Of a stretch of DNA of 64,000 nucleotides, positions 13,907 through 63,539 are shown in pieces (the first letter of the stretch is position 1; every line of letters starts with the position of its first letter). The DNA is from a virus. The notes under the pieces are model-generated. The model searched no databases and was not told the origin of the DNA. It saw only the letters and a list, made by a program, of their open reading frames with translations. The position numbers and the translations under genes were made by a program. The stretch is taken from IMG/VR virus record IMGVR_UViG_3300037826_000057, positions 1 to 64,000 of that record; one strand, 5' to 3'.

Positions 13907-14085
13907 AAATGTGTGAAATTTGTGGAAGCCCTAGTGAAGAGCGTATATGTGATTTGTGTTCTGAGCTTTTAGAGTCTGTGGACCAAAAAACTTTAAATGT
14001 ATTTCTACATTCAATGCGTAAAAAGCGTAGGGATAGACCAAAGAAAGTAGAGAGGGAAATGGAAGATTATGAAGATTTTGCGTAG
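13903..14085 (+). CDS. 60-residue zinc-ribbon protein
   Basis: MKMCEICGSPSEERICDLC gives two CxxC pairs 9 residues apart, a minimal zinc ribbon. It is followed by an acidic/basic helix. Start and stop overlap both neighbours. Function unknown. Confidence 0.55.
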   Translation: MKMCEICGSPSEERICDLCSELLESVDQKTLNVFLHSMRKKRRDRPKKVEREMEDYEDFA

Positions 14086-15871
14086 AGAGTTTTATAATGT
14101 GTCACGCGGGGATGTTTTTTCAATTATTCCGCTTGGAGATGTGCATATAGGCAATGCAGCTTGTGATGAAGAGTTGTTGGACGAAACTATTGCAGAAATT
14201 AAAAATAGACCAAACACTTATTGGGTTGGTCTCGGCGATTATTGCTTATCAGAAGATACTGAAATTTTAACTTCTGAGGGTTGGAAAGGTGTACGGCAAA
14301 TGGTTGAATCTCCTTCTGAAGTTGTGGTATATGATAAGAATAAAAGAGAATGTAAATTAGAGAAAATTAATAAACTTTGGGTTAATCCAGTTAGAGATGA
14401 AACATTAGTGAATTTAAAAAGCGGTCACGTTGATGCTTTAGTTACTAAAAACCATAAAATTCTAACTAATTATTATGATTATAAAGGCGGTTGGAACGCC
14501 TATGAAGATGTAAAGGCTAAAGAATTTTTAGATATAAATAGAGAATTTTCTTGGCGTGTTCCAGTAACGCCAGTCTCTTGGGTTGGTAAAAAGCCAGAAA
14601 TTTCTATAGATTGGGTCAGGTTAAAGGCATGGATTGACACGGAAGGACATGAGGAGCAGCGAGGTAACTACTGTAGAATTGAAATATCTCAGTCAATAGA
14701 GGCTAACCCGAAATTAGTTGAGAGAATAGAAGCTCTTATTGAACGACTTAATTTAACTCCATATGAACATGTTAGGAATTGGGGAATTAAAACCTGGAGG
14801 TTTAATGCTAAAGACACCCAGAGAATTCATGAGCATATAGGGCGCAAAGGGGAGAGGCTTGATTGGTTAATGAATGCACCAGTTGAATACCTTGAAGTTT
14901 ATTTTAACGTGCTTATGGATGGGGACGGAACGTGGTCAAGAAACACTTTCGCTCAGAAAGAAAAACCACTTGTGGATATTTTTCAAGAGCTTTGTTTCAA
15001 ACTAGGATACAGGGCCAAGGTTTCTTTTAATGATAAAATGTGGAAATGTTACTTTGGTAAAAAGAGAGGTAAGCATTCTTTACTTAGAGAAACTAATAGA
15101 GTAAAATATACTGGAATTACCTGGTGTGTTAGCACTGATACTGGATATATAGTTACAAAGAGAAACAATAAGGTTACTATACTAGGAAATTGTGATTATA
15201 TCCAATTAGGGGATTGGCGCAATGACCCGTCTATGCTAGCTGATTGGATAAGTATAAATGATTTGAATGACATTTCACGTGCTGAAACAAATAGATTTAT
15301 TCGCAAAGTTGAACCAATTGCTGATAAATGCTTGGCACTTGTACAGGGCAATCATGAGGAATTAATTAAGCGTAAGTACGAGAGAGATATTTATTCGGAA
15401 ATTGTTACAGGAGTTAAGCGCAAAGCTGGAATGCGCGGCGAAGATCACTTGGGTGTTGGATATTATGGTTGGTTAAGACTTGTGTTTTACAGTGATGACG
15501 GTAATCATACGCGCTCAGCTATTGATATGTGCTTGCACCACGGGTTTGTTGGTGGTAAGTTGTCTGGAGCTAAAGCCCTAAATATGGAGCGATATTTATG
15601 GACACATTCTGCTGATTTAATTCTAATGGGGCATTCACACAATACACTTTCAATGAGGGCTACAGTAGAGGAGCTTGACCATATGGGCAATATACGCTAT
15701 CATGTGCGTAGAGGTGCTTTCACTGGTACATTCCTTAGTACAACTAATGAAGGCGGCTCTTCGACTTACAGCGAGCGTGCTGGGCATTTGCCTACGCCAG
15801 TTGGAACAATTGAAGTTGTGTTGCGCCCAGGGCATTCTAATCCAAATAAACGCGTTAAAGTTATGACTTAA
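14069..15871 (+). CDS. Calcineurin-like metallophosphoesterase interrupted by an intein
   Basis: 600 residues before splicing, 284 after. Extein motifs of the metallophosphoesterase fold: PLGDVHIGN (residues 21-29), GLGDY|CDYI split by the intein, VQGNHEE, LHHGFVGGK and MGHSHN. These supply the Asp, His and Asn ligands of a two-metal site. Family members cleave phosphodiesters or act as SbcD-like nucleases; substrate unknown. It overlaps the zinc-ribbon gene by 17 bases and precedes the primase, which suggests a DNA-processing role. Confidence 0.85.
   Translation: MKILRREFYNVSRGDVFSIIPLGDVHIGNAACDEELLDETIAEIKNRPNTYWVGLGDYCLSEDTEILTSEGWKGVRQMVESPSEVVVYDKNKRECKLEKINKLWVNPVRDETLVNLKSGHVDALVTKNHKILTNYYDYKGGWNAYEDVKAKEFLDINREFSWRVPVTPVSWVGKKPEISIDWVRLKAWIDTEGHEEQRGNYCRIEISQSIEANPKLVERIEALIERLNLTPYEHVRNWGIKTWRFNAKDTQRIHEHIGRKGERLDWLMNAPVEYLEVYFNVLMDGDGTWSRNTFAQKEKPLVDIFQELCFKLGYRAKVSFNDKMWKCYFGKKRGKHSLLRETNRVKYTGITWCVSTDTGYIVTKRNNKVTILGNCDYIQLGDWRNDPSMLADWISINDLNDISRAETNRFIRKVEPIADKCLALVQGNHEELIKRKYERDIYSEIVTGVKRKAGMRGEDHLGVGYYGWLRLVFYSDDGNHTRSAIDMCLHHGFVGGKLSGAKALNMERYLWTHSADLILMGHSHNTLSMRATVEELDHMGNIRYHVRRGAFTGTFLSTTNEGGSSTYSERAGHLPTPVGTIEVVLRPGHSNPNKRVKVMT
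14243..15190 (+). other. Intein with LAGLIDADG homing endonuclease (316 codons)
   Basis: Starts at Cys59 of the host protein (CLSEDTEILTSEGWK, block A), has block B LVTKNHKIL with the T-x-x-H motif, and ends VTKRNNKVTILGN followed by Cys in the C-extein. Two dodecapeptide endonuclease motifs are present, LKAWIDTEG and NVLMDGDGTW, each with its acidic residue. The penultimate residue is Gly where most inteins have His. Insertion is in the metal-binding GD motif of the host enzyme, so splicing should be needed for activity. Confidence 0.9.
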
Positions 15872-21848: not shown

Positions 21849-21875
21849 AAACCCTAACCGTAACGGTTAGGGTTT
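21849..21875. terminator. Perfect 12-bp hairpin between convergent operons
   Basis: AAACCCTAACCG-TAA-CGGTTAGGGTTT, a perfect palindrome with A/T flanks, immediately downstream of the last leftward gene (21883). Likely the bidirectional stop between the rightward replication block and the leftward amidoligase operon. Confidence 0.75.
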
Positions 21876-21882
21876 AGAGTGT

Positions 21883-22014
21883 TTATTGTTTTAACAATTC
21901 TAATTCTGTTGATATTAATATACCTGCTAGAAGAGCAATTGCTCTTCTGGTATATATTTTATGTAAGTTACCGTGATTTTTAGTTAGCGTTACACCTTCT
22001 ATTTTCCCAAACAT
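21883..22014 (-). CDS. 43-residue hypothetical protein
   Basis: ATG 22014 with GGGGG upstream. The product begins MFGKIEGVTLTKNHGN and ends in a helix (AIALLAGILISTELELLKQ). Its first residues resemble MFGRITKISYGFATN of the gene at 22428, so the two may be diverged copies. Last gene of the leftward operon. Confidence 0.45.
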   Translation of the reverse strand: MFGKIEGVTLTKNHGNLHKIYTRRAIALLAGILISTELELLKQ

Positions 22015-22349
22015 TTATACCCCCCTTTAACTTGTTTAGTTAATTTTAATTTTTCGCAGCATATGGTTCCCTTTGACAAAGACCAGTATCTTGGTAAGTT
22101 TTTGATTATACCATTTTGTAATGAAAAGATGTGTAAAGGTGTCTTAGGTGGTGGTGAAATTTTTTCAGCCTGTGCTTCCCACAACTGAAGATATGCCGTA
22201 TCGTAAGTACACCGATAATAATCTATTGCGTCTTGCAGGTTGGAAAATGCAAAAAGACCATATCCCTTTTCTTTTAACCATTCTGGTGGCTGTACCCATT
22301 CTCCAGGTTTGTATTGTACTTGAGCTGATATTTTGACTGTACTGGACAT
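21999..22349 (-). CDS. C-terminal frame of a probably split gene
   Basis: Starting from ATG 22349 the product MSSTVKISAQVQYKPGEW continues as convincing protein to the stop at 21999 (LKEKGYGLFAFSNLQDAIDY). There is no ribosome site at 22349. The frame is +1 relative to the well-initiated frame at 22428, and the two overlap. Either a +1 frameshift joins them or the gene is broken. See the entry at 22165-22428. Confidence 0.5.
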   Translation of the reverse strand: MSSTVKISAQVQYKPGEWVQPPEWLKEKGYGLFAFSNLQDAIDYYRCTYDTAYLQLWEAQAEKISPPPKTPLHIFSLQNGIIKNLPRYWSLSKGTICCEKLKLTKQVKGGYKCLGK

Positions 22350-22428
22350 CAGGTACCAGTACAATAGAATGTGAAGAACTGCTATTTGTTGCAAACCCGT
22401 AACTAATTTTAGTTATTCTTCCAAACAT
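22165..22428 (-). CDS. Ser-cluster protein, N-terminal frame of a probably split gene
   Basis: ATG 22428 has an excellent AGAGGAGGTAAA site. The first ~27 residues, MFGRITKISYGFATNSSSSH followed by SIVLVPD, match the 'GFxTNSSSS' N-terminal signature seen in many phage proteins of unknown role. After about residue 30 the frame becomes unlike protein (TWRMGTATRMVKRK), whereas the +1 frame then becomes protein-like. The strong initiation signal and abrupt change support a frameshifted or split gene. Confidence 0.5.
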   Translation of the reverse strand: MFGRITKISYGFATNSSSSHSIVLVPDVQYSQNISSSTIQTWRMGTATRMVKRKGIWSFCIFQPARRNRLLSVYLRYGISSVVGSTG

Positions 22429-22703
22429 TTTACCTCCTCTACGACATTATTAGCACACTTTATACATGTAACCGTGCAATCATGTCCACCTTGATTATAT
22501 GCTACAACTACAGCATCGTATATTCTGTAGGTTTTAACTTCATCAGGATATGTTGCAATTGCTTCAACCGTATGGTAATGTTCGCAAGAACTAAAAGCAA
22601 ACCTAGTTACGTAATTAAATACTATTTTGCATTCTTCACCTAACGCTACGTGGTTAGCTTCTATTTCTTGTTCCTTTTGTTTTAGTTGTTTTCCTGTCAG
22701 CAT
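22413..22703 (-). CDS. Hypothetical protein with His/Cys pattern
   Basis: 96 residues; ends within the start of the Ser-cluster gene (16-base overlap). CEHYHTVEAIATYPDEV and HDCTVTCIKC suggest a metal-binding or redox role, but no family is recognised. AGGAGG before ATG. Confidence 0.5.
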   Translation of the reverse strand: MLTGKQLKQKEQEIEANHVALGEECKIVFNYVTRFAFSSCEHYHTVEAIATYPDEVKTYRIYDAVVVAYNQGGHDCTVTCIKCANNVVEEVKCLEE

Positions 22704-22896
22704 TTTTTACCTCCTGTTTAATTTGGTATATGGAGTGGAAAATTCCTTTTACTACTAAATGTGTTTTTCCGATTTCTACCTGTTCACAAGGCGCTATTAC
22801 CCTGAAGTGGTAGTCAGCCAATGTTCTTAGGTCTTCCCAGGTATGCTTACCATTTCTAATTCTTTCCAGCCTATCAAAAATAGTTTTACCAACCAT
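22654..22896 (-). CDS. Hypothetical protein
   Basis: 80 residues, overlapping both neighbours (50 bases with the downstream gene, 11 with the upstream one). Helical start MVGKTIFDRLERIRNGKHTW; basic tail (KNADRKTTKTKGTRNRS). Role unknown. Confidence 0.5.
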   Translation of the reverse strand: MVGKTIFDRLERIRNGKHTWEDLRTLADYHFRVIAPCEQVEIGKTHLVVKGIFHSIYQIKQEVKNADRKTTKTKGTRNRS

Positions 22897-23137
22897 TTAA
22901 CCACACCCTGCACCAGCACTTGGTGCAATAATACTGACCGTTTAGCTCTAATACCATATCTGGAAAGTCTATTTCATACCAGGGAAGGCGTAATACAACT
23001 GGCAAATGTTTTCCAACTGTATGCTCACAACCACGTACTATGTTTGGAAACGTATATATTGCAGAACAATCCTTACAAAAGGTGAAATGTTCTGCAAACC
23101 TGGTTACATTTTCAGAGTTGCAAAATATACAAGACAT
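22886..23137 (-). CDS. Zinc-ribbon hypothetical protein
   Basis: 83 residues with CIFC, CKDC and CTKCWC clusters, one of several small zinc proteins in this operon (compare 25754-26161 and 30929-31183). AAGGAG lies before ATG 23137. Role unknown. Confidence 0.55.
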   Translation of the reverse strand: MSCIFCNSENVTRFAEHFTFCKDCSAIYTFPNIVRGCEHTVGKHLPVVLRLPWYEIDFPDMVLELNGQYYCTKCWCRVWLNGW

Positions 23138-23172
23138 GTTGACTCCTTATAATTCTAATATATTCTATTGGG

Positions 23173-24003
23173 TTAATATAGAATATTTTGAGGGTTCTCT
23201 GCTTTTTCGTGAAATTCTTTTATGTCGTCTGGTAACTTTGTATTTTTTATGAAATCTACAACACCATAGAAGCTACGTCTTTTGCAACTGGTTTTAACTG
23301 TATGTATAAATTCTCCTGGTCTTCGTAGCAACCACTCAAGAGCAGCCCAGAAGAATTCTCGCCCGTAAGAATGAAGGTATGTATTTTCACCTAATGCAGC
23401 ATATAGATTGCTGCATTTTAGTGAATCCTTCCATTGGTATCTTACATTTCTGATTTTATAATGCCCGCCTTTTACCAGGTTGTAATCTAACAACCTCGGT
23501 ATTAAGAGTATCATCGAAGTAATGGGTTCATATTCTAAATACCAGGCATTATTTAGTCGCATTTTACCATACACCTGACCTGAAAATCTCGTTTGAAACC
23601 CCTTTTTCACTTTTGCTTCTTCGGTATCAAGTGAAAAATAGTCAAGAAAGATACGGTTAGGAAACTTTAACGCTTGATATGTTTTCATATTTAATGCTCT
23701 AATTATACGATCAAGTAGTCTGTTATACTTTTTATAAAAGAACATGTTTCTAGGTATTTCAAAATTTAATAATTTTCTAGTTTGTTGCCATGTACCTGAT
23801 TGTCTACGCATTAACCCAATCAGTTCTACATTTGGATTTTCTAGGTAGTTCCAGGTATCCCTAAACACCCTACTTAATTCTTCTCGACAGGTACTAGAGA
23901 AGTATAACGTAGTATTTTCATTGGTTTCAATGATGTGGGAGCAGGGGAAAATTATAGTACCATTTCTTTCTGGGTATTTATCTACTTTTGTGGTCAAGTA
24001 CAT
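23173..24003 (-). CDS. Hypothetical protein, paralogue of the next upstream gene
   Basis: 276 residues, basic and aromatic-rich. Its C-terminal half is clearly related to the product of 24018-24860: YEPITSMILLIPRLL here and YKPITSYLTLLPRL there, followed by NTYLHSYGREFFWAALEWLL versus TTYLNYFGKKNFWGFTEWLM. I recognise no family. The conserved pattern with W/Y/F in helices suggests a structured domain of about 110 residues. It lies in the amidoligase operon. Confidence 0.6.
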   Translation of the reverse strand: MYLTTKVDKYPERNGTIIFPCSHIIETNENTTLYFSSTCREELSRVFRDTWNYLENPNVELIGLMRRQSGTWQQTRKLLNFEIPRNMFFYKKYNRLLDRIIRALNMKTYQALKFPNRIFLDYFSLDTEEAKVKKGFQTRFSGQVYGKMRLNNAWYLEYEPITSMILLIPRLLDYNLVKGGHYKIRNVRYQWKDSLKCSNLYAALGENTYLHSYGREFFWAALEWLLRRPGEFIHTVKTSCKRRSFYGVVDFIKNTKLPDDIKEFHEKAENPQNILY

Positions 24004-24017
24004 ATTATATTACCTCC

Positions 24018-24860
24018 TTAATAAGAGAGTAGGTTGAATGGGTGGTCATCGCTTAGCAACCGCATCCAATCTAAGCAGGTCGATGGTATTTTGCCTTTTT
24101 CTTTGGCCCAACCCATAAAAGATTCTACCCCATCTATTTTGCTTTTGTTTTGAGCTTCTTCTATTCTATCAAGAAGAAGTTTGGGATCGTGCATTAACCA
24201 CTCTGTGAACCCCCAAAAATTCTTCTTACCGAAGTAGTTCAGGTAAGTGGTGCTAGCTAATTTTGAAAACCAATTTGTACAATGGAAATTATAGTTCTTA
24301 TGAAAATAGCGCATTTGCGCTGAAGAGCCATATCTTATTCCTGTATTTACTAATCTGGGAAGTAATGTTAAGTACGACGTAATTGGTTTATACTTTAGAA
24401 ATTGAGATGGTACTTGGATTTCCCCATACCAAGTACCTGTTCTGAGTCTTTTTGTGTGGGATGTAACCCAGGCCCATTTATATACAGGTTCAACTTCCCA
24501 ACCGAATTTATGTGCTTCTAAATTAAATTCATGTTGTTGAGCTAAAAGAGGGGGACATAGGCGCATTTCTGTTAAGGTATAAATAATATGTGAATAAAAT
24601 CTAGAGAACTGGTCTAGTAAAGTCTTGGTTCTTTTTGATTTATTCTCTATAGGGTTACGGTAAGATGGCCCGAAATTGCGTAAAAGACCATATATTTTTA
24701 CATCCTGAGCTGGTAACTGCGATGCCCATTCTTTGAAAGCATAGGAATTAGTTTCCCTACAAGATGCCAAATGGTGCAAAACCCATTTGTCTTTGTAGCG
24801 TGAAAAATACTTGTTATCTCGGTTGAAGTTTGCTTGTGTATAGTTTGTAATTCCTAACAT
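24018..24860 (-). CDS. Hypothetical protein, paralogue of 23173-24003
   Basis: 280 residues from ATG 24860 (GGGGGT 5 bases upstream). The C-terminal half matches its downstream neighbour (see there). The N-terminal halves differ, with weakly similar openings such as YSHIIYTLTEM. The tandem pair probably arose by duplication and then diverged. A strong hairpin sits just upstream of the ribosome site. Function unknown. Confidence 0.6.
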   Translation of the reverse strand: MLGITNYTQANFNRDNKYFSRYKDKWVLHHLASCRETNSYAFKEWASQLPAQDVKIYGLLRNFGPSYRNPIENKSKRTKTLLDQFSRFYSHIIYTLTEMRLCPPLLAQQHEFNLEAHKFGWEVEPVYKWAWVTSHTKRLRTGTWYGEIQVPSQFLKYKPITSYLTLLPRLVNTGIRYGSSAQMRYFHKNYNFHCTNWFSKLASTTYLNYFGKKNFWGFTEWLMHDPKLLLDRIEEAQNKSKIDGVESFMGWAKEKGKIPSTCLDWMRLLSDDHPFNLLSY

Positions 24861-24870
24861 AATGACCCCC

Positions 24871-24910
24871 AATTTGTAAGGGGTGTGAGCGGTTACTCAC
24901 ACCCCAATTT
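24871..24910 (-). terminator. Strong hairpin between operon genes
   Basis: GGGGTGTGAG-CGGTTA-CTCACACCCC, a perfect 10-bp stem extended by AATT/AATT flanks. It lies right before the ribosome site of the next gene, with no T-run before it. It may be a partial terminator or an RNA-processing or stabilising element. Confidence 0.5.
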
Positions 24911-24938
24911 AATTCACCAACTTAATCCACAGGTTAAT

Positions 24939-25757
24939 TCACAAACTCCAGTTTTCCCGCCAGTTACCTTTCGGTCTGGTGGGAATTTCAAACCCAACCA
25001 GTTTGGCAACCATTTGCAAAACCTCTTTGACTTGGTTGGGTTCTCTCGTGACCAAAGTATTGATTAAAACTTCTTGTGGAATATATTCCACAAGAATATC
25101 ATAGGTATCCTCATTGTAGCATTCTTGTGCCAATTTGAATACCAGTTTGGTCGTTTGCGGTGCCCGGTAATATACATTACTTGGAGTTCTGTATTCAACT
25201 CCAAAGGGTTGGCGGCGGTAGATTCCGGGTTTACCATATACTCCAGCGCGTTTTATACCCTCTTCACCAGAGAGGTATGTGTCCAGCAATCCAACTGTAT
25301 AATCTAGAGCTTTAATGGGTTTTTCCTGGAACGGTGCTCCCAGGTGAATATGCCCACCAAAGTATCGGTATGGATGTTGAGACGCATCCATATTACTTGG
25401 GTCTTGGTCGCGTCCCCAAACCGATAGGTCTGGGTCACAACCAAAGATAGCTGCACGCTCATCCACTTCACACCACTCTAGATCAAATGGTGTGCTGGGT
25501 ATCATTTTGATGGGTTTCTCCAGCACATGTTCTAGCTCATGCATATAGCCAAACATTTCTCTTAAATTATTAACCATATTTGCTACTGTTTTTGCCGGTT
25601 GTACGTTCAGTTCCAGTGCGGCACCATCGGGAAAGAAGCGACCACACCCAATAGCTAGGTTGGTCTCCAATTCTGCCTCTTGCATAGCCATTTTAGCTGG
25701 GTAACAGGTTCCATTTTCGACTACTGGAAATTCTGGATCGCATCCTAAGGTAATCAT
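24939..25757 (-). CDS. COOH-NH2 ligase type 2 (phiEco32-like amidoligase)
   Basis: 272 residues. Motifs of the glutamine-synthetase-fold ligase family found in phages: GCDPEFPVV at residues 5-13, PDGAALELNVQP near 44, HPYRYFGGHIHLGAP near 130, and RRQPFGVEYRTPSNVYY near 185. The acidic, Arg and His residues form the metal/ATP site of this fold. Members are predicted to join a carboxyl to an amine with ATP. It lies in an operon with a second amidoligase, an ATP-grasp and an amidotransferase. Confidence 0.8.
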   Translation of the reverse strand: MITLGCDPEFPVVENGTCYPAKMAMQEAELETNLAIGCGRFFPDGAALELNVQPAKTVANMVNNLREMFGYMHELEHVLEKPIKMIPSTPFDLEWCEVDERAAIFGCDPDLSVWGRDQDPSNMDASQHPYRYFGGHIHLGAPFQEKPIKALDYTVGLLDTYLSGEEGIKRAGVYGKPGIYRRQPFGVEYRTPSNVYYRAPQTTKLVFKLAQECYNEDTYDILVEYIPQEVLINTLVTREPNQVKEVLQMVAKLVGFEIPTRPKGNWRENWSL

Positions 25758-26161
25758 GATAGTATTTCCTCCTTATTCTGGTAGATTGGGCATTCGTTTG
25801 TATATTCACAGTACCCACATTCACTCTCCAGGTACCGCCTCTTGTAACTTTCGCAGAAGAGACGGTCAAACTTTCTGCAGTAATTTCCTTCTATCTCCTC
25901 TAGTTTATTACCGCAGTAGCAATATGCTTGCAGATATTGCTTTTGCGGTGGATATTGTATCTCAAACCCGCAGGATGGGCACCTGACTACCGGCTTGGTA
26001 CTGCGTACTGGTTCACTCGCATTTACATTCTGCGACAGGATTTGGGGGGTTACCCCATCATTCGTGACGGTAACTCTAACTTGTCCTGTCACCTCAAGCA
26101 TGATGGTTCCCTGGGCTTTTGAAAACTTGTAACTGCAATTTGGACATGTTACTTCAATCAT
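25754..26161 (-). CDS. Multi-zinc-ribbon protein
   Basis: 135 residues with Cys groups CPNC, CPSC, CYCGNK, then a cluster CRKFDRLFCE ... CGYCEYTNECPIY. Two or three metal sites are likely. The beta-rich middle (IMLEVTGQVRVTV) is unusual. It overlaps the amidoligase start by 4 bases, suggesting coupled translation. Role unknown. Confidence 0.6.
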   Translation of the reverse strand: MIEVTCPNCSYKFSKAQGTIMLEVTGQVRVTVTNDGVTPQILSQNVNASEPVRSTKPVVRCPSCGFEIQYPPQKQYLQAYCYCGNKLEEIEGNYCRKFDRLFCESYKRRYLESECGYCEYTNECPIYQNKEEILS

Positions 26162-26170
26162 GTTACCTCC

Positions 26171-26524
26171 CTATCTAAATGTCTTGTTCTTTTTTGTAGA
26201 AGTCACCCACTCAAGAGAAACTCTCACGTTCAATATGTTTGAATACCTCCTTTCCCACTTGTTTTTTATACGTTCGGATTTCTGACCATTCAAAAACCCC
26301 CTCACTTGGTTTGTTCCGATTGCAGCCCATTTTATTACCCTGAAAGGCTTACATTGATTCCAGGGTTTTGTTTCAAAGATTAGAAAAATTGGTCTTTCCT
26401 GTTTTTCTGCAGCTTTACAAATATAAGGTATCTGAGACATTTTGCTGATACCAGCAGTTAAACTTTGTCCGGTGTTACGGATTTGTGCTCCGAATTGAAT
26501 AAATTTTGTTATATCTATTCCCAT
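26171..26524 (-). CDS. Hypothetical protein
   Basis: 117 basic residues (MGIDITKFIQFGAQIRNTGQ ... RIKNKWERRYSNI). No family recognised. It sits 8 bases after the preceding gene in the operon. Confidence 0.5.
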   Translation of the reverse strand: MGIDITKFIQFGAQIRNTGQSLTAGISKMSQIPYICKAAEKQERPIFLIFETKPWNQCKPFRVIKWAAIGTNQVRGFLNGQKSERIKNKWERRYSNILNVRVSLEWVTSTKKNKTFR

Positions 26525-26532
26525 TTTAACCC

Positions 26533-27198
26533 TTACTCAATTTCAAAGTATTTCTTTATTACGGTTACCCCGTGTGGAGAAAATTTAGCCTTTTTGGCTA
26601 ATTCAAATATATACGGGTCTTTTTGCGACAGCATAATAAGAAATCGTAATTTAATCTCTTTGTCGTTTATATCATTTTCCTTTAACATCCAGGAGTATTC
26701 TGAGACCAACAAGGAAAATAATTGGGGGAAAACTACATCCGATGTGTAACGGATTTCATCCCCTACGAGAAACCCGAAAGGTTGAGAATTTTCCAGGGTT
26801 TGTGTGGCCATTTCTAGAATAGTCTGTTCCAGAGTGTATCTTACTGCTGGCACAGTGGGTATATCGGTATTTTCTGAAACCTCCCAAAGGAGATTATGGT
26901 CATCTCCTTCAATTCCCATTAACTGGCCATCCGTATTAATAGTAATTTTTTTAGGTAATTCTTTAGCAAGGTCTTTTCTACCCTGCATAAATTCCTTTGC
27001 CCAGTTAACTTTCGCATTGGAAGTATAGCATACCTGGTTGGGCCTTTCTGGGTCTAAGATCAAACCTGGGCAGTGGTTTACAAAGCTGGGGTAGAATTCA
27101 TCGTTAAGCTCGTATTCACCGGCTAATACGAAGAGACCGTCTGTGCCGGTGTATTTTCCTTTTTCAGCTCTGGCTGAGTGTAGTTGTCTATAGATCAT
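26533..27198 (-). CDS. Hypothetical protein of the amidoligase operon
   Basis: 221 residues. N-terminal MIYRQLHSARAEKGKYTGTD and an acidic middle; no recognised motif. It overlaps the RuvB-like gene by 4 bases, so the two may work together. Function unknown. Confidence 0.55.
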   Translation of the reverse strand: MIYRQLHSARAEKGKYTGTDGLFVLAGEYELNDEFYPSFVNHCPGLILDPERPNQVCYTSNAKVNWAKEFMQGRKDLAKELPKKITINTDGQLMGIEGDDHNLLWEVSENTDIPTVPAVRYTLEQTILEMATQTLENSQPFGFLVGDEIRYTSDVVFPQLFSLLVSEYSWMLKENDINDKEIKLRFLIMLSQKDPYIFELAKKAKFSPHGVTVIKKYFEIE

Positions 27199-27944
27199 AT
27201 TACCTCCCTACCATTACCTGTGATTTTGACTAACCCAGATTTTTGCAGGAACCTTTCACGCTCTTGCAATTCTCTGGGTGTAACCGATAAGATGTTTGAA
27301 AGTGTCTTCTTACTACAAGCACCGCTCTCTAATGTACTCAGGTACAAACGGTCTAAATTATCTAGACCATTCTCATCTACTTGCAGATACTCCTCCAAGA
27401 TTTTTGCTACATTCCCAGGTGATTCTGGATAATTTTTATAGTCCATAATCGCGGTTACCTCTTCCGCTAATTTCACACCTCTGCGTGGTATACCTTTGCA
27501 CCTGGGGGCGATTATATCGGTTGATGCCTTTTTAAGGTCAGTGTGTACACCGATAATTTGAGATAGTTCTGTTTCAGTGTACCCACCAAGACGAATTTGG
27601 TAGGTACGACTGCGCATTGGTGCTGGTAGTTTTGCACTCATATTAGACACAAATACAAAACTTCGGTCATTCATTAGTGGATAAAACTGTTCAAAATTTC
27701 TTATGGTATGGGCTTCATCTATTACTGTCAGGTGTGCTGACGGTAAATTATTTATGGGTGGCAGTAAGTAAGCATACATTGCTATGCATGCTACCACAAA
27801 TAAAGCTAAAGCAGTTTTACCCATTCCATAATGCCCCTTTAGAAGAATGTTGACCGGATGGTCAAAACTCTTCTCCAGCAACGCCTGCATTCTGGTCTTC
27901 TGCTTTTCCTGCCCAATATAATTACTGGGGGGATTCATACTCAA
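27195..27944 (-). CDS. RuvB-like AAA+ ATPase
   Basis: 249 residues, shorter than RuvB (~335). YIGQEKQKTRMQALLEKS then HPVNILLKGHYGMGKTALA (Walker A near residue 40), LTVIDEAH (Walker B), FVFVSNMS (sensor 1), then CKGIPRRG, LQVDENGLDNLDRLYL and a C-terminal winged helix ending LQKSGLVKITGNGREVI. The order and wording follow RuvB, the Holliday-junction motor. No ruvA lies nearby. It overlaps the ATP-grasp gene by 23 bases, an unexpected partner for a RuvB. Confidence 0.75.
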   Translation of the reverse strand: MSMNPPSNYIGQEKQKTRMQALLEKSFDHPVNILLKGHYGMGKTALALFVVACIAMYAYLLPPINNLPSAHLTVIDEAHTIRNFEQFYPLMNDRSFVFVSNMSAKLPAPMRSRTYQIRLGGYTETELSQIIGVHTDLKKASTDIIAPRCKGIPRRGVKLAEEVTAIMDYKNYPESPGNVAKILEEYLQVDENGLDNLDRLYLSTLESGACSKKTLSNILSVTPRELQERERFLQKSGLVKITGNGREVI

Positions 27945-28710
27945 TTACCCCTTCTGCGTTAAGTTCCTGAAGGTGTTTAGCAAATAAATCTGTATAATAA
28001 GTCACGGTCTTGCTATTTAGAGCTGGCCCCGTGTTTACCTCAAAGACCAAAACCTCACCTTGTCTGTTTCTAGCTATATCTACCCCGCCGTAAATTAAAC
28101 CAAGTGCTTCAACCGCTTTTACAGCGGTCTCTGCGCATTTTGGGTAATATTTTTCTAGGTTCACTCTCTTGTATCCCCACCCGAATTTTGAGGTTCGGAT
28201 TTTTTTATGTGCGTCATCCTCTCTGGGTACTTTTCTAAAGCCCTTTACGGCTTCACCGTTTACCACGTGTACCCTTAGTTCTCTATCGGCCTCAAAAAAG
28301 GACAGGAAATATTTGCACCCGCTTTCTCTTGCTTCAGCAGGTGCTTCTACGATTTTAATATCTGCACCTGCTTTATGGTTGATCCTTCCCCGCCCAACCA
28401 GCGGGTATAAGCTTTCATCTTGAGGTGGAATGTGGTATACCTCTGCAACTGGTATACCATTTTCCCCCATAACTTCGACAGCGCGGTGCCCACGTACTGC
28501 CAATCTAATACTGCTTCTTGGTTGCAAGGCAAAGTCGTTTTGTGCATACGTCGAGCTTCCCCACCGCACCACAACCTTGTTATTTTCTGGTGTCTTGGTA
28601 TACCCAATTCCTAGGTTTCTTGCAATTTGTTTTGCAGTTTTGGACGTTGTGCGGTGATACAACACCTTTAAGTTTCTATTTGTTTGGGGGTAAAATCTAT
28701 TATATATCAT
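27922..28710 (-). CDS. ATP-grasp ligase
   Basis: 262 residues. N-terminal segment VVVRWGSSTYAQND, central YFLSFFEADRELRVHVVNGE, and the C-terminal metal/ATP site YGGVDIARNRQGEVLVFEVN-TGPALN, with Asp, Glu and Asn as expected for ATP-grasp. Such enzymes form an acyl phosphate and join it to an amine or thiol. Its first codon overlaps the amidotransferase stop (ATGA), a sign of close functional pairing. Confidence 0.85.
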   Translation of the reverse strand: MIYNRFYPQTNRNLKVLYHRTTSKTAKQIARNLGIGYTKTPENNKVVVRWGSSTYAQNDFALQPRSSIRLAVRGHRAVEVMGENGIPVAEVYHIPPQDESLYPLVGRGRINHKAGADIKIVEAPAEARESGCKYFLSFFEADRELRVHVVNGEAVKGFRKVPREDDAHKKIRTSKFGWGYKRVNLEKYYPKCAETAVKAVEALGLIYGGVDIARNRQGEVLVFEVNTGPALNSKTVTYYTDLFAKHLQELNAEGVIEYESPQ

Positions 28711-29852
28711 TGCACTACCTCCTCAACTTCTTGTAGCATTTTCTCAAGCTCTTCGACCGTATGAAATACATACGGGTAAAATGTATCATTGGAGGTTATT
28801 GCGTCTACCTCGTATATCGTCAGACCCGAAATTGTTTCAATGCTTTCCGCAATACCCACTTTTTCAGGGGTACGGAATTCTAGCATAATATCTTCTACTT
28901 GTGATAAACCTTCTTTAATTTCTTCGGTGGAGCATTCGGATAATGGTTTCTCCATTACATATTCTGCCCAACCCTCCACCTCTGTCCATGTTAGACCTTT
29001 GAGAAATTCAATAATTATTTCTGCCTTTTCTACCACTTCTGATTTATCATTTTTGGTGTAAGTTGTATACGCTTTTGTTACATTTCTTTTACCCTTCTCC
29101 CTAGGTAAGTCAGCGGTTTCAGTGTGTTCTCCATTTGTGTATTTCTCTACGGTGTTCCAAGTGAGTTTTTCTGGTTCTCCAGTCTCTACTTGGTATCCCC
29201 AAACTTTAGGAAGATTTTCTAGCCAATACCGTAAGTTTTCTAGAGCTTCTTTTGAGGTGTTGACTACGAGCATTTCTCTGTTTTCTGTGGTCACCTTCAT
29301 TTTGTGCAGTGGGTTGGTGCCTCGCACTAAAAAGAGATTATCTTTTTGAATGATTACTAACGCAAAAGAACCCTGCCATTTTTTCGTAACTGTTTTTATA
29401 CTTTCAACAGTTACGGTTTTAGATTCTGAAATCAATGCACGAAGAAAAACCTCAGAATCACATGGTTCGTGCTCGATTTCACTCACCAATTTTTTATACA
29501 CTTCGGAACTCTCATAACCTCTGAAGGTTCCATTATGTGCTAGATATACATCTTCACACATAAAGGGGTGTGCACCGTCTACACCCCCGGTACCTTTTGA
29601 GATTGCTCTTACATGCCCAAGAACGTGGTTTGCATTGTTTAGGTTAGGCATATGTTCTTGAAACAGTTCGGTCTCTAAAGCTTTAGAGGCCGTCTTACCA
29701 GATTTAAAAGAAACAGTAGGTATTGCTACCCCTGTTCCATCAGTATTACCTTGTTGTTCGCCTGTAAGCAACAAGGTTTTCATTAAGAAAGGTTTTAAGC
29801 CTTTCTGGAATTGTTGTTGTGGTTTGTGAACTATTGCGGACAGTCTACACAT
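28707..29852 (-). CDS. Class II glutamine amidotransferase
   Basis: 381 residues. Cys2 is the expected N-terminal nucleophile (MCRLSAIVHKP). Supporting motifs: HVLGHVRAISKG near residue 95, GAHPFMCEDVYLAHNGTFRG near 115, CDSEVFLRAL near 152, LVRGTNPL near 190. These match the Ntn glutaminase domain that releases ammonia from glutamine. The C-terminal ~150 residues are acidic and helical and carry no synthase domain, so a partner must use the ammonia, presumably the ATP-grasp or amidoligases of the operon. Confidence 0.85.
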   Translation of the reverse strand: MCRLSAIVHKPQQQFQKGLKPFLMKTLLLTGEQQGNTDGTGVAIPTVSFKSGKTASKALETELFQEHMPNLNNANHVLGHVRAISKGTGGVDGAHPFMCEDVYLAHNGTFRGYESSEVYKKLVSEIEHEPCDSEVFLRALISESKTVTVESIKTVTKKWQGSFALVIIQKDNLFLVRGTNPLHKMKVTTENREMLVVNTSKEALENLRYWLENLPKVWGYQVETGEPEKLTWNTVEKYTNGEHTETADLPREKGKRNVTKAYTTYTKNDKSEVVEKAEIIIEFLKGLTWTEVEGWAEYVMEKPLSECSTEEIKEGLSQVEDIMLEFRTPEKVGIAESIETISGLTIYEVDAITSNDTFYPYVFHTVEELEKMLQEVEEVVQ

Positions 29853-29863
29853 TAATTACCTCC

Positions 29864-30919
29864 TTAGATTATTGTCAGGTTGGCGTACCCAGGAATGAGT
29901 TGCAAATTTTCCTCTCTGGTAAATTCATCAAACCCAAATGTATTATCCGGGTCTATGATTTCTGGACGTAAACTTTCGGGACAGTTTCTAAACCTGTAGG
30001 TGTGTCCCAGGTGCCCTCTTTGGTGTCCGTGGACACCACGCGGAAACCTCCTTGGCAGTTCCCATAATTCTTGCATTGTGGGTATATATTGTGGGGCAGG
30101 GTCTAACCACTCAATTAATTCATCGAGTGTTAAGTTGTCAGTACCCAGGGGATTTCTGGGTAGTCTTTCGGTACCTTTCTTCCAGAAAGCCGACCGCACC
30201 AACTTTTTACTTAATTCAACCCAAGTAAATAAATACTTGGGGGTAAGCGTAGAATTAAATAAGCGTAGTTCAGTTGTTTCCTGGGTAAAAAGTGATAATA
30301 AGTTTAACCAGACGTACCTGGCTTCGTGGTATCTGGCTCCTGAATAATTCCCTAGCGATTTAGCTAGGTTTTTTGATGATTCTAGATTGTTAATAATCTT
30401 CTCTGCGTCAAACACTTTGCGCAGGTGGCCTTTACGGTCATGCACAACGGGAGGTGAAAGCAATGGCCGGCAATAACCATAGTCTGCTCTTAACTCGCCT
30501 CGGTGCCGACCTACCTCACCACAAGCAAGTCTATAAAAACCTGCTTCTAGGTATAATCCCACTTCCAAGATATTCTTAATTATTTCAGCTGGCAAGTCTC
30601 CGGTATGTACGTGAACGTGAATACCGGTTTGGGCATTCACGCCCTCTCCGGTACTTTTTAGAGCAGACAACAATTGCCTAACTTGGTCTTTCCATCGTTC
30701 GTCATTTTCGGTGTCTAAAATGGGCGAAACAAATTCTCCCCCGCACTTTACCTGTCTGAAGACAGGTTTGCTGGTGCGTAAAGTACCTCCCAGCACATGA
30801 GAGTGTGACCTACATGACCCGTCTTCCACCAAACGCCAGCCAGGCGGTGTAAGGTTGCGTAGGAAGCTTTTAGCAGAGTTCCTTGCTTCAATTTCTATAC
30901 CCACATTCATAATTAACAT
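29864..30919 (-). CDS. Putative amidoligase (Amidoligase_2 type)
   Basis: 351 residues. NVGIEIEA near residue 5, DGSCRSHSH, GGEFVSPILD near 62 and QTGIHVHVHTGD near 98 are the strand motifs of the glutamine-synthetase-like Amidoligase_2 family (E-x-E, E-h-S-P, H-x-H). The C-terminal half is specific to this protein. It is distinct from the type 2 ligase at 24939, so the operon holds two different amidoligases. AAGGAGG precedes ATG 30919 (ATG 30910 is an alternative). Confidence 0.8.
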   Translation of the reverse strand: MLIMNVGIEIEARNSAKSFLRNLTPPGWRLVEDGSCRSHSHVLGGTLRTSKPVFRQVKCGGEFVSPILDTENDERWKDQVRQLLSALKSTGEGVNAQTGIHVHVHTGDLPAEIIKNILEVGLYLEAGFYRLACGEVGRHRGELRADYGYCRPLLSPPVVHDRKGHLRKVFDAEKIINNLESSKNLAKSLGNYSGARYHEARYVWLNLLSLFTQETTELRLFNSTLTPKYLFTWVELSKKLVRSAFWKKGTERLPRNPLGTDNLTLDELIEWLDPAPQYIPTMQELWELPRRFPRGVHGHQRGHLGHTYRFRNCPESLRPEIIDPDNTFGFDEFTREENLQLIPGYANLTII

Positions 30920-30928
30920 AGACCCTCC

Positions 30929-31183
30929 TTAATACTGTATTATCGCTCCATAACATTCTTGACAAATGCGCCCATACTTTGATTGTATGGTTTGTTCAAA
31001 ATCCGTGATCTGCCTGCACATGTTACAGACCACTTTTCCGGTATAGCAGTTATTACATACTGCTACACCATTTGTATTATACATATAGCGCGGGAGCGCC
31101 CATTTCCCGCATACCTTACACTTTTTCATAATCTGCGGGTGTGTAAGGTTTGCATATTCTTCATACTTTGAGGTGTCTATCAT
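30929..31183 (-). CDS. Zinc-ribbon protein, first gene of the leftward operon
   Basis: 84 residues with four CxxC pairs: CKVC, CNNC, CNMC and CQEC, enough for two zinc sites. It is nearest the promoter at 31243. Possibly a regulator or an RNA/DNA-binding adaptor. AAGGAG site present. Confidence 0.6.
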   Translation of the reverse strand: MIDTSKYEEYANLTHPQIMKKCKVCGKWALPRYMYNTNGVAVCNNCYTGKVVCNMCRQITDFEQTIQSKYGRICQECYGAIIQY

Positions 31184-31242: not shown

Positions 31243-31271
31243 AGTATAGCGGAGCAAACTTACCGTGTCAA
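31243..31271 (-). promoter_or_regulatory. Promoter of the amidoligase operon
   Basis: Minus strand TTGACA (31271-31266), 17-base spacer, TATACT (31248-31243). The flanks CTGGTTTTCTAAACCCCC and CGGTAAGT are shared with the promoter at 34078. Confidence 0.85.
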
Positions 31272-31445: not shown

Positions 31446-31523
31446 AGGCCCATAGCTCAGTCTGGTTAGAGCGTCCGGCTCATAACCGGGTGGTCACTGG
31501 TTCAAATCCAGTTGGGCCTACCA
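31446..31523 (+). tRNA. tRNA with CAU anticodon (elongator Met or Ile2)
   Basis: Acceptor AGGCCCA/TGGGCCT (7 bp), D arm GCTC/GAGC with GG in the loop, anticodon stem TCCGG/CCGGG with loop CTCATAA (anticodon CAU), T arm ACTGG/CCAGT with TTCAAAT loop. A73 and CCA are encoded. The paired first base and the anticodon stem are not initiator-like. Whether the C is modified to lysidine (reading AUA) cannot be told. Confidence 0.92.
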
Positions 31524-32986: not shown

Positions 32987-33071
32987 GCCGGTGTGGTGGA
33001 ATCTGGTAGACACCGGGGACTTAAAATCCCCTGATCGCAAGGTCGTGAGGGTTCGACTCCCTCCACCGGCA
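32987..33071 (+). tRNA. tRNA-Leu (UAA)
   Basis: Acceptor GCCGGTG/CACCGGC, anticodon stem GGGGA/TCCCC with loop CTTAAAA (anticodon UAA), long variable arm (TGATCGCAAGGTCGT) typical of Leu, T arm GAGGG/CCCTC with TTCGACT loop. No encoded CCA. Confidence 0.92.
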
Positions 33072-33082
33072 CTTGTTTAAAA

Positions 33083-33156
33083 GCCCTGGTAGCTCAATTG
33101 GATAGAGCACCGGACTTCTAATCCGGTGGTTGCTGGTTCAAATCCAGCCCAGGGTA
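33083..33156 (+). tRNA. tRNA-Arg (UCU)
   Basis: Acceptor GCCCTGG/CCAGGGT (G-U at the first pair), D arm GCTC/GAGC, anticodon stem CCGGA/TCCGG with loop CTTCTAA (anticodon UCU, reading AGA/AGG), T arm GCTGG/CCAGC with TTCAAAT loop. AGA is frequent in the AT-rich phage genes. No encoded CCA. Confidence 0.92.
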
Positions 33157-60633: not shown

Positions 60634-61074
60634 CTAACCTTTATCTTCCAATAATGTTACCGTTATCCTATTTGGTTCCGGTACACCTTTGATTGCATAA
60701 TTTTTCATATACATTTCCTTTGCGTCCACCTCATAATGGTGTGAATTCCGAACAGCAGTAAGATTGTACCCACTCAAACCTACCGTAGCTTGGCAATCAC
60801 CTTCATGCACTTTCCCGCCCTCAGACCAAAGGGGCTGTTCTGAAGAAAACCACCTAACGTGTGCTAATACGGGATAAGCAGAAATAGTATTTATCCAATA
60901 ATTACCATCACAAGTTTCACAAAAAGGGTCTGTTGAAAGATTAGTAGTTGGGTCTAGTGAGCATTGAGAACACGCCTCACCACTTACCTCAACATAAATA
61001 GTAATCTCTCTACCAATAGTATTTCTAATTTCATCTATTGTTTCTTTTGTATTTGAAGGAAATGTTATATTCAT
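60634..61074 (-). CDS. Connector-region protein with Cys4 site
   Basis: 146 residues. ACSQCSLDPTTNLSTDPFCE followed by TCDG gives CxxC-x12-CxxC, a zinc site often seen in small head-tail connector proteins of phages of Gram-positive bacteria. Overlaps the glycosyltransferase stop by 4 bases. Confidence 0.55.
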   Translation of the reverse strand: MNITFPSNTKETIDEIRNTIGREITIYVEVSGEACSQCSLDPTTNLSTDPFCETCDGNYWINTISAYPVLAHVRWFSSEQPLWSEGGKVHEGDCQATVGLSGYNLTAVRNSHHYEVDAKEMYMKNYAIKGVPEPNRITVTLLEDKG

Positions 61075-63539
61075 ATCACTCGTTTAAAAATCTTATCCCA
61101 TTGCTTGCCAATTTCAGACCACTTAAACTTATCCCGGGTAACAAAATTATAAATTTTGTCGGCATATTTTTGGCGCGTAGTATCATCATACATAACTTGC
61201 AGAGATTTTGCTACCGCATCTGGCGAAACAACCTTACCCTCAGTTAGAATGTCAGGATAAGTATAATTGTATGAAATAGGAATCTTATACATCACATCAT
61301 CTGGGTATATTGTCTTATAGGCAGAACTATTAGGTACAATTTGTGCCCTATGGCACGCTGCTTGTTCCATAGAAGTATTATGAAGAATCACACCATTACC
61401 TACAAAGCTGTGAGAATCTCTGACAGAAATATCCATAACTTCCTGACGTCCTAATTTTTCTATATCTCTAACTTGTGTGAAAATATAATTTTCTGTATGA
61501 ACATAATATTGTCGTCTAGCTCTAGAGGATTCTCTAAGAGGTACCTCAATAAGTTTCCTAAACAACTTCTCCTCAAAACCGCCAACTGTTACTTTATATT
61601 GTGGGAAATTACCAGCCTCTCGTTGTGGGTATGTGTTGAAAGTTGCAAATATGTGATTAGTCCTCAAAATATAGAGAATTTGCCAAGCCAGTTGTTTTGA
61701 TACAGTGGTAACAGACCAAGAACCGTTACTAGATTTATGTCCGTCGCCCTTGAAATATCCCCTCAAAAGTGGTCCTAGGCTTGTCGCTGACTTCCAAAGG
61801 AGATTATGTAGCCTCTTATTGTTTGCCCCACTCCCACATAAAGCGGTTAAAAAATCTCCTAAAATGGAAGAGCAACAATCTAGAGCACTACGATTGCCTG
61901 TTTCTTTTCTATAGGCGGTTGCATATACATTAAATGCTTTTCTCAAATAGACTTTAAATCTTTTAGCTACTTGTAGTTCATTCCCGTGAAGTGAGAGTTC
62001 TACTTTATTATAACTATAAGAACCTTCTGCTAGATACCAACCTAAAAACTCTAAAAAGTCAGAGTCAATTTTAATAAACCTATTAACTCTATTTGGTTGG
62101 GGGAGTTCAAAGTCTTCCCCGTATTTGGTTAGTATTTCTTTAGCTACTAAATTAGACTCTGTGCTTTCATCCGCGGGAATAAATTCACCACTAATTATTT
62201 TCCTAGCATTTTCAATAACCTTTTTCGTAGTATTAAACTCTTTCATTAATGAAGATATAGAAAACTTACGGTTTAGCCCGGAATAGCCGTGTTTATTCCA
62301 AATATGCTTAGAATCGTAATCAATAGTATCTCCACTAACAAACTCTGCCAAGTCCAAATATTCCGGCAACGGCTCTTTCCAATCTGGTATTGGCACTCCT
62401 ATAAAGTCACCTACCGTTATTTCAGATAATGGAAGCCATTTAGTGTCTTTTTCTGAGTAGTCGGTATTGCTAGGTTGTCCCATGTATTTAATTGTTAAGA
62501 AAGGGTGCTGTTTAGTAACTACAACGTCCGGAATGCCTCTACCGGATACAGAATAAGCAGTATCAACTCTACCAATCTTATCCAAAACATCATAGAACTT
62601 ACCATTATGAGAGAGAACTCTATCCCCAATTGACAAGTCTTCCATTTTTACACTTCCAGAGTCAGTCAAGATTTCTGTGCTTGGGTCAACACATAGCCCC
62701 CAACCTTCACCCATTGAGGTATTGAGGCCGACATCAGCAGCATTATAGATATAATTCAATCTTTCATCACTTACATAAGAGTCTGGGCCTAATTCGAGTG
62801 ATGTAAGTAGCAACCGCTTCTCAATACCATAACGCTTACACAAACGAATAACTGACCAACCCATATCTTTTTCACCCATATGACAATATAGCTTCACATT
62901 GTCTGGTTTACCTTCTGCAAACTTAGCAAAGCCCTTAATTGTAAGGTCAATGCGTTTACGCGGTTGATTGCGATTCGCATTTAAAACCACAAAATCTCCT
63001 GGAAAGACACCATTTAAATAAGCCCTAGCCTCTGTCATATTCATTGGAAAGAAAGTTTCTGTGTCAAGGCCGTGTGGCACAATACCAATATCTGCTTTTG
63101 GAAAATAGTCAGTAATTGCACTCTTTCCAAATTCTGTATAAGCATATGGGTGTGATAATTCAACCAAACGTTCAACCCACTCCCTATCTAAAGGTTTGGC
63201 ATCTACCGGAAAATAAGTAACAATTGGCTTATCAATCTCACGCAACCTAAACAAATACTTATATAAAACCCAGGTATCATTTAAGATGAAAATAAAATCT
63301 GGGTCAACATTATTAACCAAGCTGTCTAAACGCCCAAACCCATATAGGTCACCCCCAAGCATCGCGGGGTACATTTTGTGATCTGCGGGGTATGGGTCAC
63401 CTTTGTAATTAATAGCTAAGTGATGAATATCATAATCATCCGGCAAATTATCAATAATACTATGCACCACCCTAGCAAAACCTGTAGCAACTCCACCATC
63501 ACCAATAAAAAGCCCTGTAATCCTTCCCTTATTATCCAT
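61071..63539 (-). CDS. Family 4-type glycosyltransferase interrupted by an intein
   Basis: 822 residues before splicing, 383 after (282 + 101). N-terminal GLFIGDGGVATGFARVVHSI, then PHGLDTETFFP, VLNANRNQPRKRIDL (linker and donor domain), and VGLNTSMGEGWGL|TSMEQAACHR, the conserved E-x7-E donor-sugar motif split by the intein. This is a GT-B retaining glycosyltransferase that uses a nucleotide sugar. It lies among head-tail genes and beside a sulfotransferase, so it may decorate capsid or tail. Confidence 0.85.
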   Translation of the reverse strand: MDNKGRITGLFIGDGGVATGFARVVHSIIDNLPDDYDIHHLAINYKGDPYPADHKMYPAMLGGDLYGFGRLDSLVNNVDPDFIFILNDTWVLYKYLFRLREIDKPIVTYFPVDAKPLDREWVERLVELSHPYAYTEFGKSAITDYFPKADIGIVPHGLDTETFFPMNMTEARAYLNGVFPGDFVVLNANRNQPRKRIDLTIKGFAKFAEGKPDNVKLYCHMGEKDMGWSVIRLCKRYGIEKRLLLTSLELGPDSYVSDERLNYIYNAADVGLNTSMGEGWGLCVDPSTEILTDSGSVKMEDLSIGDRVLSHNGKFYDVLDKIGRVDTAYSVSGRGIPDVVVTKQHPFLTIKYMGQPSNTDYSEKDTKWLPLSEITVGDFIGVPIPDWKEPLPEYLDLAEFVSGDTIDYDSKHIWNKHGYSGLNRKFSISSLMKEFNTTKKVIENARKIISGEFIPADESTESNLVAKEILTKYGEDFELPQPNRVNRFIKIDSDFLEFLGWYLAEGSYSYNKVELSLHGNELQVAKRFKVYLRKAFNVYATAYRKETGNRSALDCCSSILGDFLTALCGSGANNKRLHNLLWKSATSLGPLLRGYFKGDGHKSSNGSWSVTTVSKQLAWQILYILRTNHIFATFNTYPQREAGNFPQYKVTVGGFEEKLFRKLIEVPLRESSRARRQYYVHTENYIFTQVRDIEKLGRQEVMDISVRDSHSFVGNGVILHNTSMEQAACHRAQIVPNSSAYKTIYPDDVMYKIPISYNYTYPDILTEGKVVSPDAVAKSLQVMYDDTTRQKYADKIYNFVTRDKFKWSEIGKQWDKIFKRVI
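61377..62693 (-). other. Intein with LAGLIDADG homing endonuclease (439 codons)
   Basis: Begins at Cys283 (CVDPSTEILTDSG, block A), block B VVTKQHPFLT, endonuclease motifs FLGWYLAEGS and LRGYFKGDGH, and ends DSHSFVGNGVILHN before a Thr. Penultimate His and terminal Asn are present, and Thr is the +1 nucleophile. All splicing blocks are intact. Inserted in the donor-site motif GEGWGL/TSMEQA of the host enzyme. Confidence 0.93.

Follow-up and report, generated by a model that had tools for sequence, protein, structure and literature searches.

The 'peptidoglycan modification cassette' is conserved in phages RIO-1, phiEco32, 7-11, PA11, tf, MR299-2, LUZ24, PaP3 and CW02, and the relevant section of the report that names it, which attributes the cassette to Iyer 2009 and Hardies 2013, hypothesises that it changes the host surface against superinfection (PMC5498523). 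For phiEco32, the same idea of a wall target has been put forward in a passage that gives Iyer 2009 as its source (PMC10580990). In the phiEco32-like phage SU10, a glutamine amidotransferase (GATase), an ATP-grasp protein and a YtfP-like protein were seen by proteomics and are listed among the early gene products (PMC4281155). The cassette occurs in hundreds of phages, and in the literature that we found its function has so far only been guessed; no product or phenotype traced to cassette genes was found in the literature consulted.

Relatives of the PF14395 ligase are present in 309 phage records; in IMG/VR, at least 512 stretches contain one. This ligase, Amidoligase_2 (PF12224), an ATP-grasp ligase and a class II glutamine amidotransferase (GATase II) occur together in Pseudomonas phages PA11 and tf (where tf_25 is annotated as BtrG-like), Escherichia phages EK010 and Bas94, Rhizobium phage N3_13 and Klebsiella phage Klyazma, and also in Vibrio phages, Pantoea phage TacPo2, an oyster-associated phage and Planctomycetes phage ZRK32. 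Neighbourhoods were compared in the 80 best IMG/VR loci of PF14395 ligase relatives. An earlier note on the present DNA had named unlinked genes in relatives as an outcome that would refute its reading of a peptide-modifying system; all four enzymes were found in 40 of the 41 loci in this sample that have enough flanking sequence. Their usual order is C26-GATase-ligase-X-amidoligase-ATP-grasp-primase. Class I GATase/C26 is present in 67 of the 80 loci, a gamma-glutamyl cyclotransferase in 17 and a primase in 51, and the majority of relatives have the cassette close to a primase or helicase. A gamma-glutamyl-cleaving partner (GGCT or C26) is common, not universal. Pairwise divergence is correlated between the enzymes (r 0.42–0.82 over 82 sets). 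The four enzymes are co-inherited in many phages.

The window analysed here, a stretch of 64,000 nucleotides, comprises bases 1–64000 of a 77,053-bp virus record. The portal protein, encoded in the record outside the window, has Bacillus Slash-like phages and Microcystis phage MaeS as its nearest relatives at 22–27% identity, which indicates that the virus is probably an isolated tailed phage. Its host is possibly Gram-positive, as suggested by the Slash-like portal and by strong ribosome-binding sites; sites of the AGGAGG type precede many of the operon genes. The minus-strand genes from 31183 to 21883 appear to form a single transcription unit, judging from the distances between genes, from overlaps of stop and start at several junctions, and from the promoter-like site and terminator-like hairpin that bound it (Table 1). 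The GATase stop and the ATP-grasp start share an ATGA at 28707–28710, the genes for the ATPase and the 221-aa protein overlap at 27195–27198, and those for the 135-aa zinc-ribbon protein and the PF14395 ligase overlap at 25754–25757. Both the leftward operon and the ATP-grasp/GATase II overlap described in the earlier note are thus borne out.

Table 1. Features of the amidoligase operon, in order of transcription; positions are those of the window.
Feature	Position	Strand	Remarks
Promoter-like site TTGACA-17-TATACT	31243..31271	-	Upstream of operon; 11/12 matches in a consensus scan whose overall richness is no greater than in shuffles
84-aa zinc-ribbon-like protein, first gene	30929..31183	-	CxxC pairs
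Amidoligase_2 (PF12224), GS-fold carboxylate-amine ligase	29864..30919	-	Pfam E 3.7e-19
Class II glutamine amidotransferase, N-terminal Cys, NTN hydrolase	28707..29852	-	Pfam GATase_6 E 4.5e-8
RimK-type ATP-grasp ligase	27922..28710	-	Pfam E 2.2e-7; PHROG 2599 E 3.3e-24
RuvB-like AAA+ ATPase, shortened, 249 aa	27195..27944	-	NCBIfam PRK00080 E 7.2e-18; PDB RuvB 1in4 E 7.2e-10
221-aa protein	26533..27198	-	No family match (Pfam, PHROG); no homologue in other cassettes
135-aa zinc-ribbon-like protein	25754..26161	-	CxxC motifs; weak Zn_ribbon_4
COOH-NH2 ligase (PF14395), second GS-fold amidoligase	24939..25757	-	Pfam E 9.4e-12; PHROG 3815 E 1.2e-32
Paralogue pair, member 1, 284 aa	24018..24872	-	No Pfam or PHROG match
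Paralogue pair, member 2, 276 aa	23173..24003	-	No Pfam or PHROG match
83-aa zinc-ribbon-like protein	22886..23137	-	CxxC motifs; weak Zn_Ribbon_TF
80-aa protein	22654..22896	-	ORF
96-aa protein, doubtful zinc-binding motif	22413..22703	-	ORF
Frame-broken TNSSS-x-H-S family gene	21999..22428	-	First frame 22165-22428 with YGFATNSSSSHSIVL; +1 frame 21999-22394
Last small ORF, 43 aa, MFGKIEGVTLTKN...	21883..22014	-	Ribosome-binding site present
Terminator-like hairpin, T-rich tail	21849..21875	-	Operon end

The core of this operon is very probably the known phage amidoligase cassette of the LUZ24, PA11 and phiEco32 type. As in LUZ24, PaP3, PA11, tf, phiEco32, RIO-1 and PSA-HP1, the two amidoligases, the ATP-grasp ligase and GATase II are clustered on one strand, and Pfam confirmed that the two amidoligases belong to the glutamine-synthetase (GS) fold families proposed from the raw sequence. 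Each enzyme was compared with 77–85 cassette sequences, and the catalytic residues of all four are largely kept. The window Amidoligase_2 retains 11 of 11 invariant cassette residues (G7, E9, E11, S35, E62, H101, H103, R144, Y202, E217 and R219). In the GATase, Cys2 is present by sequence and H80, R82, the HNG at 106–108 and D132-S133 are kept; the ATP-grasp ligase keeps E144, R146, K160, D211, E224 and N226 and has a glycine at the position of the 98%-conserved K74. When the COOH-NH2 ligase is aligned with nine cassette members, 22 columns are invariant. By these residues, all four enzymes look active.

The window copy is a very divergent, rearranged and largely intact member of the cassette family. 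Among 82 sets it ranks first or second in isolation for every enzyme, a rank that holds within a sample whose members were picked for their resemblance to the PF14395 alignment, and its enzymes reach 23–30% identity to cassette members at best. A single-protein search returned no close IMG/VR relatives of the ATP-grasp and PF14395 ligases. The gene order, AL2-GAT-ATP-grasp-(ATPase, 221-aa protein, zinc ribbon)-PF14395, is new among the loci examined. Unlike the described cassettes, the window copy does not lie beside a primase and has in addition the ATPase, the paralogue pair and the zinc ribbons, and it belongs to a phage with the portal relationships given above. Neither GGCT, class I GATase/C26 nor protein X was found in the window or the remaining record. 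What this copy has kept are the four ligase and amidase enzymes with their catalytic residues; the gamma-glutamyl-cleaving enzymes, protein X and the neighbours are replaceable, and the list of what a reconstitution needs is thereby narrowed.

The earlier note had described the gene combination as unusual. Two amidoligases with an ATP-grasp ligase and GATase II turn out to be standard cassette content, and it is the RuvB-like ATPase, the paralogue pair and the zinc ribbons, all of them local additions to the cassette, that are unusual. The assignment of the ATPase itself held up in profile searches (Table 1). Like the RuvB Holliday-junction helicase it has an N-terminal P-loop region and a C-terminal winged helix, and its ends match RuvB; it differs in its length of 249 aa, in an AAA core that is shorter by about 50 residues between Walker A and the sensor region, and in its location in an amidoligase operon. 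Relatives of it occur in records of gut phages and Listeria phages that carry no annotation. The paralogue pair proved real (24% identity, E 6e-16). Four zinc ribbons had been listed, of which the three at 30929–31183, 25754–26161 and 22886–23137 are clear from their CxxC motifs and the fourth, at 22413–22703, is doubtful. For the ATPase, the paralogue pair and the 221-aa protein, none of the other cassettes compared has a homologue; membership of the pathway is therefore unsupported for the ATPase and the pair. BLAST, profile and profile-profile comparisons were negative for the idea that the pair or the 221-aa protein corresponds to the cassette neighbours of about 290–400 aa or to protein X. 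An AlphaFold model from the pair was uninformative (pLDDT 32), and defence-system models gave no match to the operon proteins tested. Zinc ribbons similar to those of the window precede Amidoligase_2 in one reading frame in contig L217 (19152–19898), where they are in frame with the apparent N-terminal half of a split Amidoligase_2 and GATase II adjoins. Within the first 200 residues, none of 83 cassette-set amidoligases has as many as three CxxC motifs.

Amide-forming chemistry is a likely function of the core. The earlier note's reading of the operon as an amide-bond system is sound, given that both amidoligases are confirmed, that the four enzymes are linked in nearly all well-flanked relatives and that their divergence is correlated. 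In the proposed pathway, GATase II would hydrolyse glutamine and hand on ammonia or a gamma-glutamyl group, thereby supplying one of the GS-fold ligases; the ATP-grasp ligase and the second GS-fold ligase would then use ATP to form further amide or isopeptide bonds on a soluble substrate in the cytosol. No hydrophobic stretch of transmembrane strength was found in any of the four enzymes. The cyclotransferase and C26 peptidase partners in other phages suggest that gamma-glutamyl intermediates may be made and then removed. For butirosin, gamma-glutamyl protection involves the ATP-grasp enzyme BtrJ and the cyclotransferase BtrG. Many cassettes likewise pair an ATP-grasp enzyme with a gamma-glutamyl cyclotransferase, a likeness that we take only as a lead, whereas the window has no cyclotransferase and has two GS-fold ligases. 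The substrate would be a host envelope precursor, namely the peptide side chain of peptidoglycan or of a similar wall polymer, and this precursor would be altered in infection, perhaps against superinfection. We tentatively favour the combined reading of a divergent cassette member acting most likely on a host envelope precursor, similar wall polymers included; a wall target taken on its own is possible but somewhat doubtful. If the host is Gram-positive, the wall hypothesis becomes testable in a second kind of envelope.

Observations bearing on the target fall on both sides. The occurrence of the four enzymes in the named cassette phages and the family assignments support the envelope explanation; on the other side, the small protein X that most cassettes include is absent from the window, as are the gamma-glutamyl-cleaving enzymes, and the primase/helicase neighbourhood in most relatives would also suit a DNA-related role. 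The main rival to a wall target is accordingly of that kind: an amino acid or amide would be attached to a DNA base and protect the phage DNA, with help from the ATPase and the zinc ribbons. The frequent primase in the best IMG/VR loci and the RuvB-like ATPase in the window operon are in line with such a hypermodification, as is the finding that cassette-bearing Gordonclarkvirinae resist restriction while, in the section of the paper concerned, no known modification pathway is assigned to them (PMC11990801). Bas94 belongs to the same collection and carries the cassette, as does EK010, placed in Gordonclarkvirinae by its record. The authors of that study, however, in the same section point to other genes, those for a dCTP deaminase and a nucleotidyltransferase (PMC11990801), no recognisable base-activating enzyme was seen in the operon, and the ATPase is absent from other cassettes, so that we consider DNA hypermodification rather unlikely.

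A role in metabolism, in which the cassette would make or recycle a small gamma-glutamyl metabolite and its members would be auxiliary metabolic genes for nitrogen or amino-acid metabolism, has been suggested for ZRK32, one of the phages with all four enzymes; the corresponding part of that report describes a growth effect that is not traced to the cassette genes by deletion (PMC10945688). The gamma-glutamyl enzymes beside many cassettes would fit this role, but the window has no gamma-glutamyl-cleaving enzymes, and two GS-fold ligases with an ATP-grasp ligase are more than simple assimilation needs; we regard a metabolic role as unlikely. The RimK/MptN-type similarity of the ATP-grasp ligase raises the further prospect that a host protein is the target and receives amino acids from it and the ligases, in the way that ribosomal protein S6 does from RimK. 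Its NCBIfam matches lie far under the family cut-offs, however (34 bits versus 350 for MptN), and modification of a host protein alone would leave the two GS-fold ligases unexplained, which makes this possibility quite improbable.

The earlier note had also proposed the Ser-cluster protein near the end of the operon as a substrate. Its ORF at 22428, which starts MFGRITKISYGFATNSSSSHSIVL, appears to cover no more than the 5' part (22165–22428) of a frame-broken gene, with the break at about 22300–22345: in the +1 frame family-like sequence continues, with somewhat better codon usage, and a mutation, a programmed shift and a sequencing error would each be compatible with these data. The protein matches the N-terminal motif F-[EA]-T-N-S-S-S/T-x-H of a phage family whose genes elsewhere accompany one for a radical SAM enzyme, and it shares YGFATNSSSSHSIVL near its N-terminus with a radical-SAM-fused homologue in L105. 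Compared with tag proteins that have a radical SAM partner (LMM01 gp130/gp128 and Arash gp146c), the window copy is short and frame-broken, and no radical SAM gene was found in the 77-kb record by a profile search of the window and the remainder or by the weaker family search. That whole-genome family search missed PF14395 in the window's own record, although hmmscan detects it; its negatives are therefore weak, including those for radical SAM in this record and for amidoligase, GATase_6 and PF14395 in 50 tag-family records, and direct profile searches were added where possible.

As a ribosomally made tag or precursor acting as substrate of the amidoligase operon, the Ser-cluster protein would have in its favour its place in the same operon, its family motif, and contig L217, in which three tag genes, a radical SAM gene, GATase II and the split zinc-ribbon Amidoligase_2 lie on one strand within about 6.5 kb. 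The window gene is broken, though, and among the 50 tag-family records the family search found Amidoligase_2 in 3, GATase_6 in 1 and PF14395 in 2, counts in which divergent members can be missed, while a tag gene occurs in none of 80 cassette loci. Co-occurrence thus fails to support the proposal in either direction, the relatives going with radical SAM and not with amidoligases, and we judge it very improbable. The same low probability applies to a wider version, an undescribed phage system in which FETNSSSTHS tag proteins are processed by radical SAM and in which, here, the radical SAM enzyme has been lost and the amidoligase/ATP-grasp/GATase set acts instead. A link between tag and amidoligase is possible but weak, and the window gene is best read as a probable relic of a separate phage protein family.

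Of the leads from this analysis that family is the most novel, but its tie to the operon is loose; together with its radical SAM partner it looks undescribed and is directly testable. A literature search for the motif found no paper, and the tag proteins tested had no Pfam, NCBIfam or PADLOC model, their PHROG match being a family of unknown function. The motif YGFATNSSS-x-HS is located near the start of radical-SAM-fused proteins in Salmonella phage Arash and in all 6 matching IMG/VR contigs. A wider motif, GVFETNSSSTHS, was found in 70 IMG/VR stretches and in 18 stretches of bacterial genomes, mostly Clostridia, Acholeplasma and other gut MAGs. After removal of redundancy and with at least 2 kb of flank on each side, 26 of 27 tag loci have a radical SAM gene fused or on the same strand within 2 kb. 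Two or more tag genes are present in 40 of 75 loci, often two or three in tandem. All 140 unique tag proteins have the F, T, N, H and first two serines of the motif, which is usually located 7–10 residues from the likely start. The tag may be a site of modification. A 98-residue member gave a confident structure model (pLDDT 89), and a fold search with it at E ≤ 0.001 matched nothing in PDB or BFVD. At the other end of the tag proteins, the C-termini YKGN and GYDG recur.

A family of small phage proteins with an N-terminal FETNSSS-x-HS motif, here termed tag proteins, is apparently undescribed. Members are encoded in IMG/VR and genome contigs L019–L125, where their genes are frequently arranged in tandem, and in the window (ORF start 22428); YKGN and GYDG recur as their C-termini. 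At 26 of 27 loci, counting only non-redundant, well-flanked ones, a radical SAM protein of ~300 aa adjoins the tag protein or is fused to it.

The only clear neighbourhood combining the tag/radical SAM and amidoligase systems lies on contig L217, where a single strand carries three tag genes, a radical SAM gene, a GATase II gene and a zinc-ribbon Amidoligase_2 gene, the last split by a frame break. On contig L037, 0.7 kb separates two tag genes from a same-strand gene for a RimK-type ATP-grasp (E 3.9e-32); radical SAM is absent from this contig piece.

In other cassettes, one or two proteins of ~290–400 aa are encoded on, or close to, the upstream flank of the PF14395 ligase. The majority cannot be aligned with each other; several display, near the N-terminus, Cys, then an aromatic residue or Cys, then Gly/Ala. 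They are possibly a fast-evolving cassette component.

Within the operon, a perfect 10-bp hairpin (GGGGTGTGAG...CTCACACCCC), scored terminator-like for the plus strand only, separates the PF14395 ligase from the paralogue pair and may be an RNA regulatory element. The widest intergenic gap holds an ORF without family assignment that may be a gene, and tRNA genes sit just past the operon's promoter-like site. Judged by eye, several long ORFs, for a calcineurin-like phosphoesterase, glycosyltransferase and terminase, seem broken up by intein or homing-endonuclease sequence.

Positions of features in the window and compared contigs
Feature	Position	Remark
Hairpin	window 24880-24905	
ORF, possible gene	window 26171-26524	117 aa
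tRNA genes (3)	window 31446-31523, 32987-33156	Met, Leu, Arg; plus strand
Combined neighbourhood	L217:13482-19898	
ATP-grasp and tag genes	L037:569-1981	
Upstream proteins	L131:4172-5985; L002:579-2755; L135:5809-7987; L134:7120-7992; L003:1491-2405; L133:3878-4762	~290-400 aa
Interrupted-looking ORFs	window 14069-15871, 61071-63539; L216:5895-6554; L216:10060-12798
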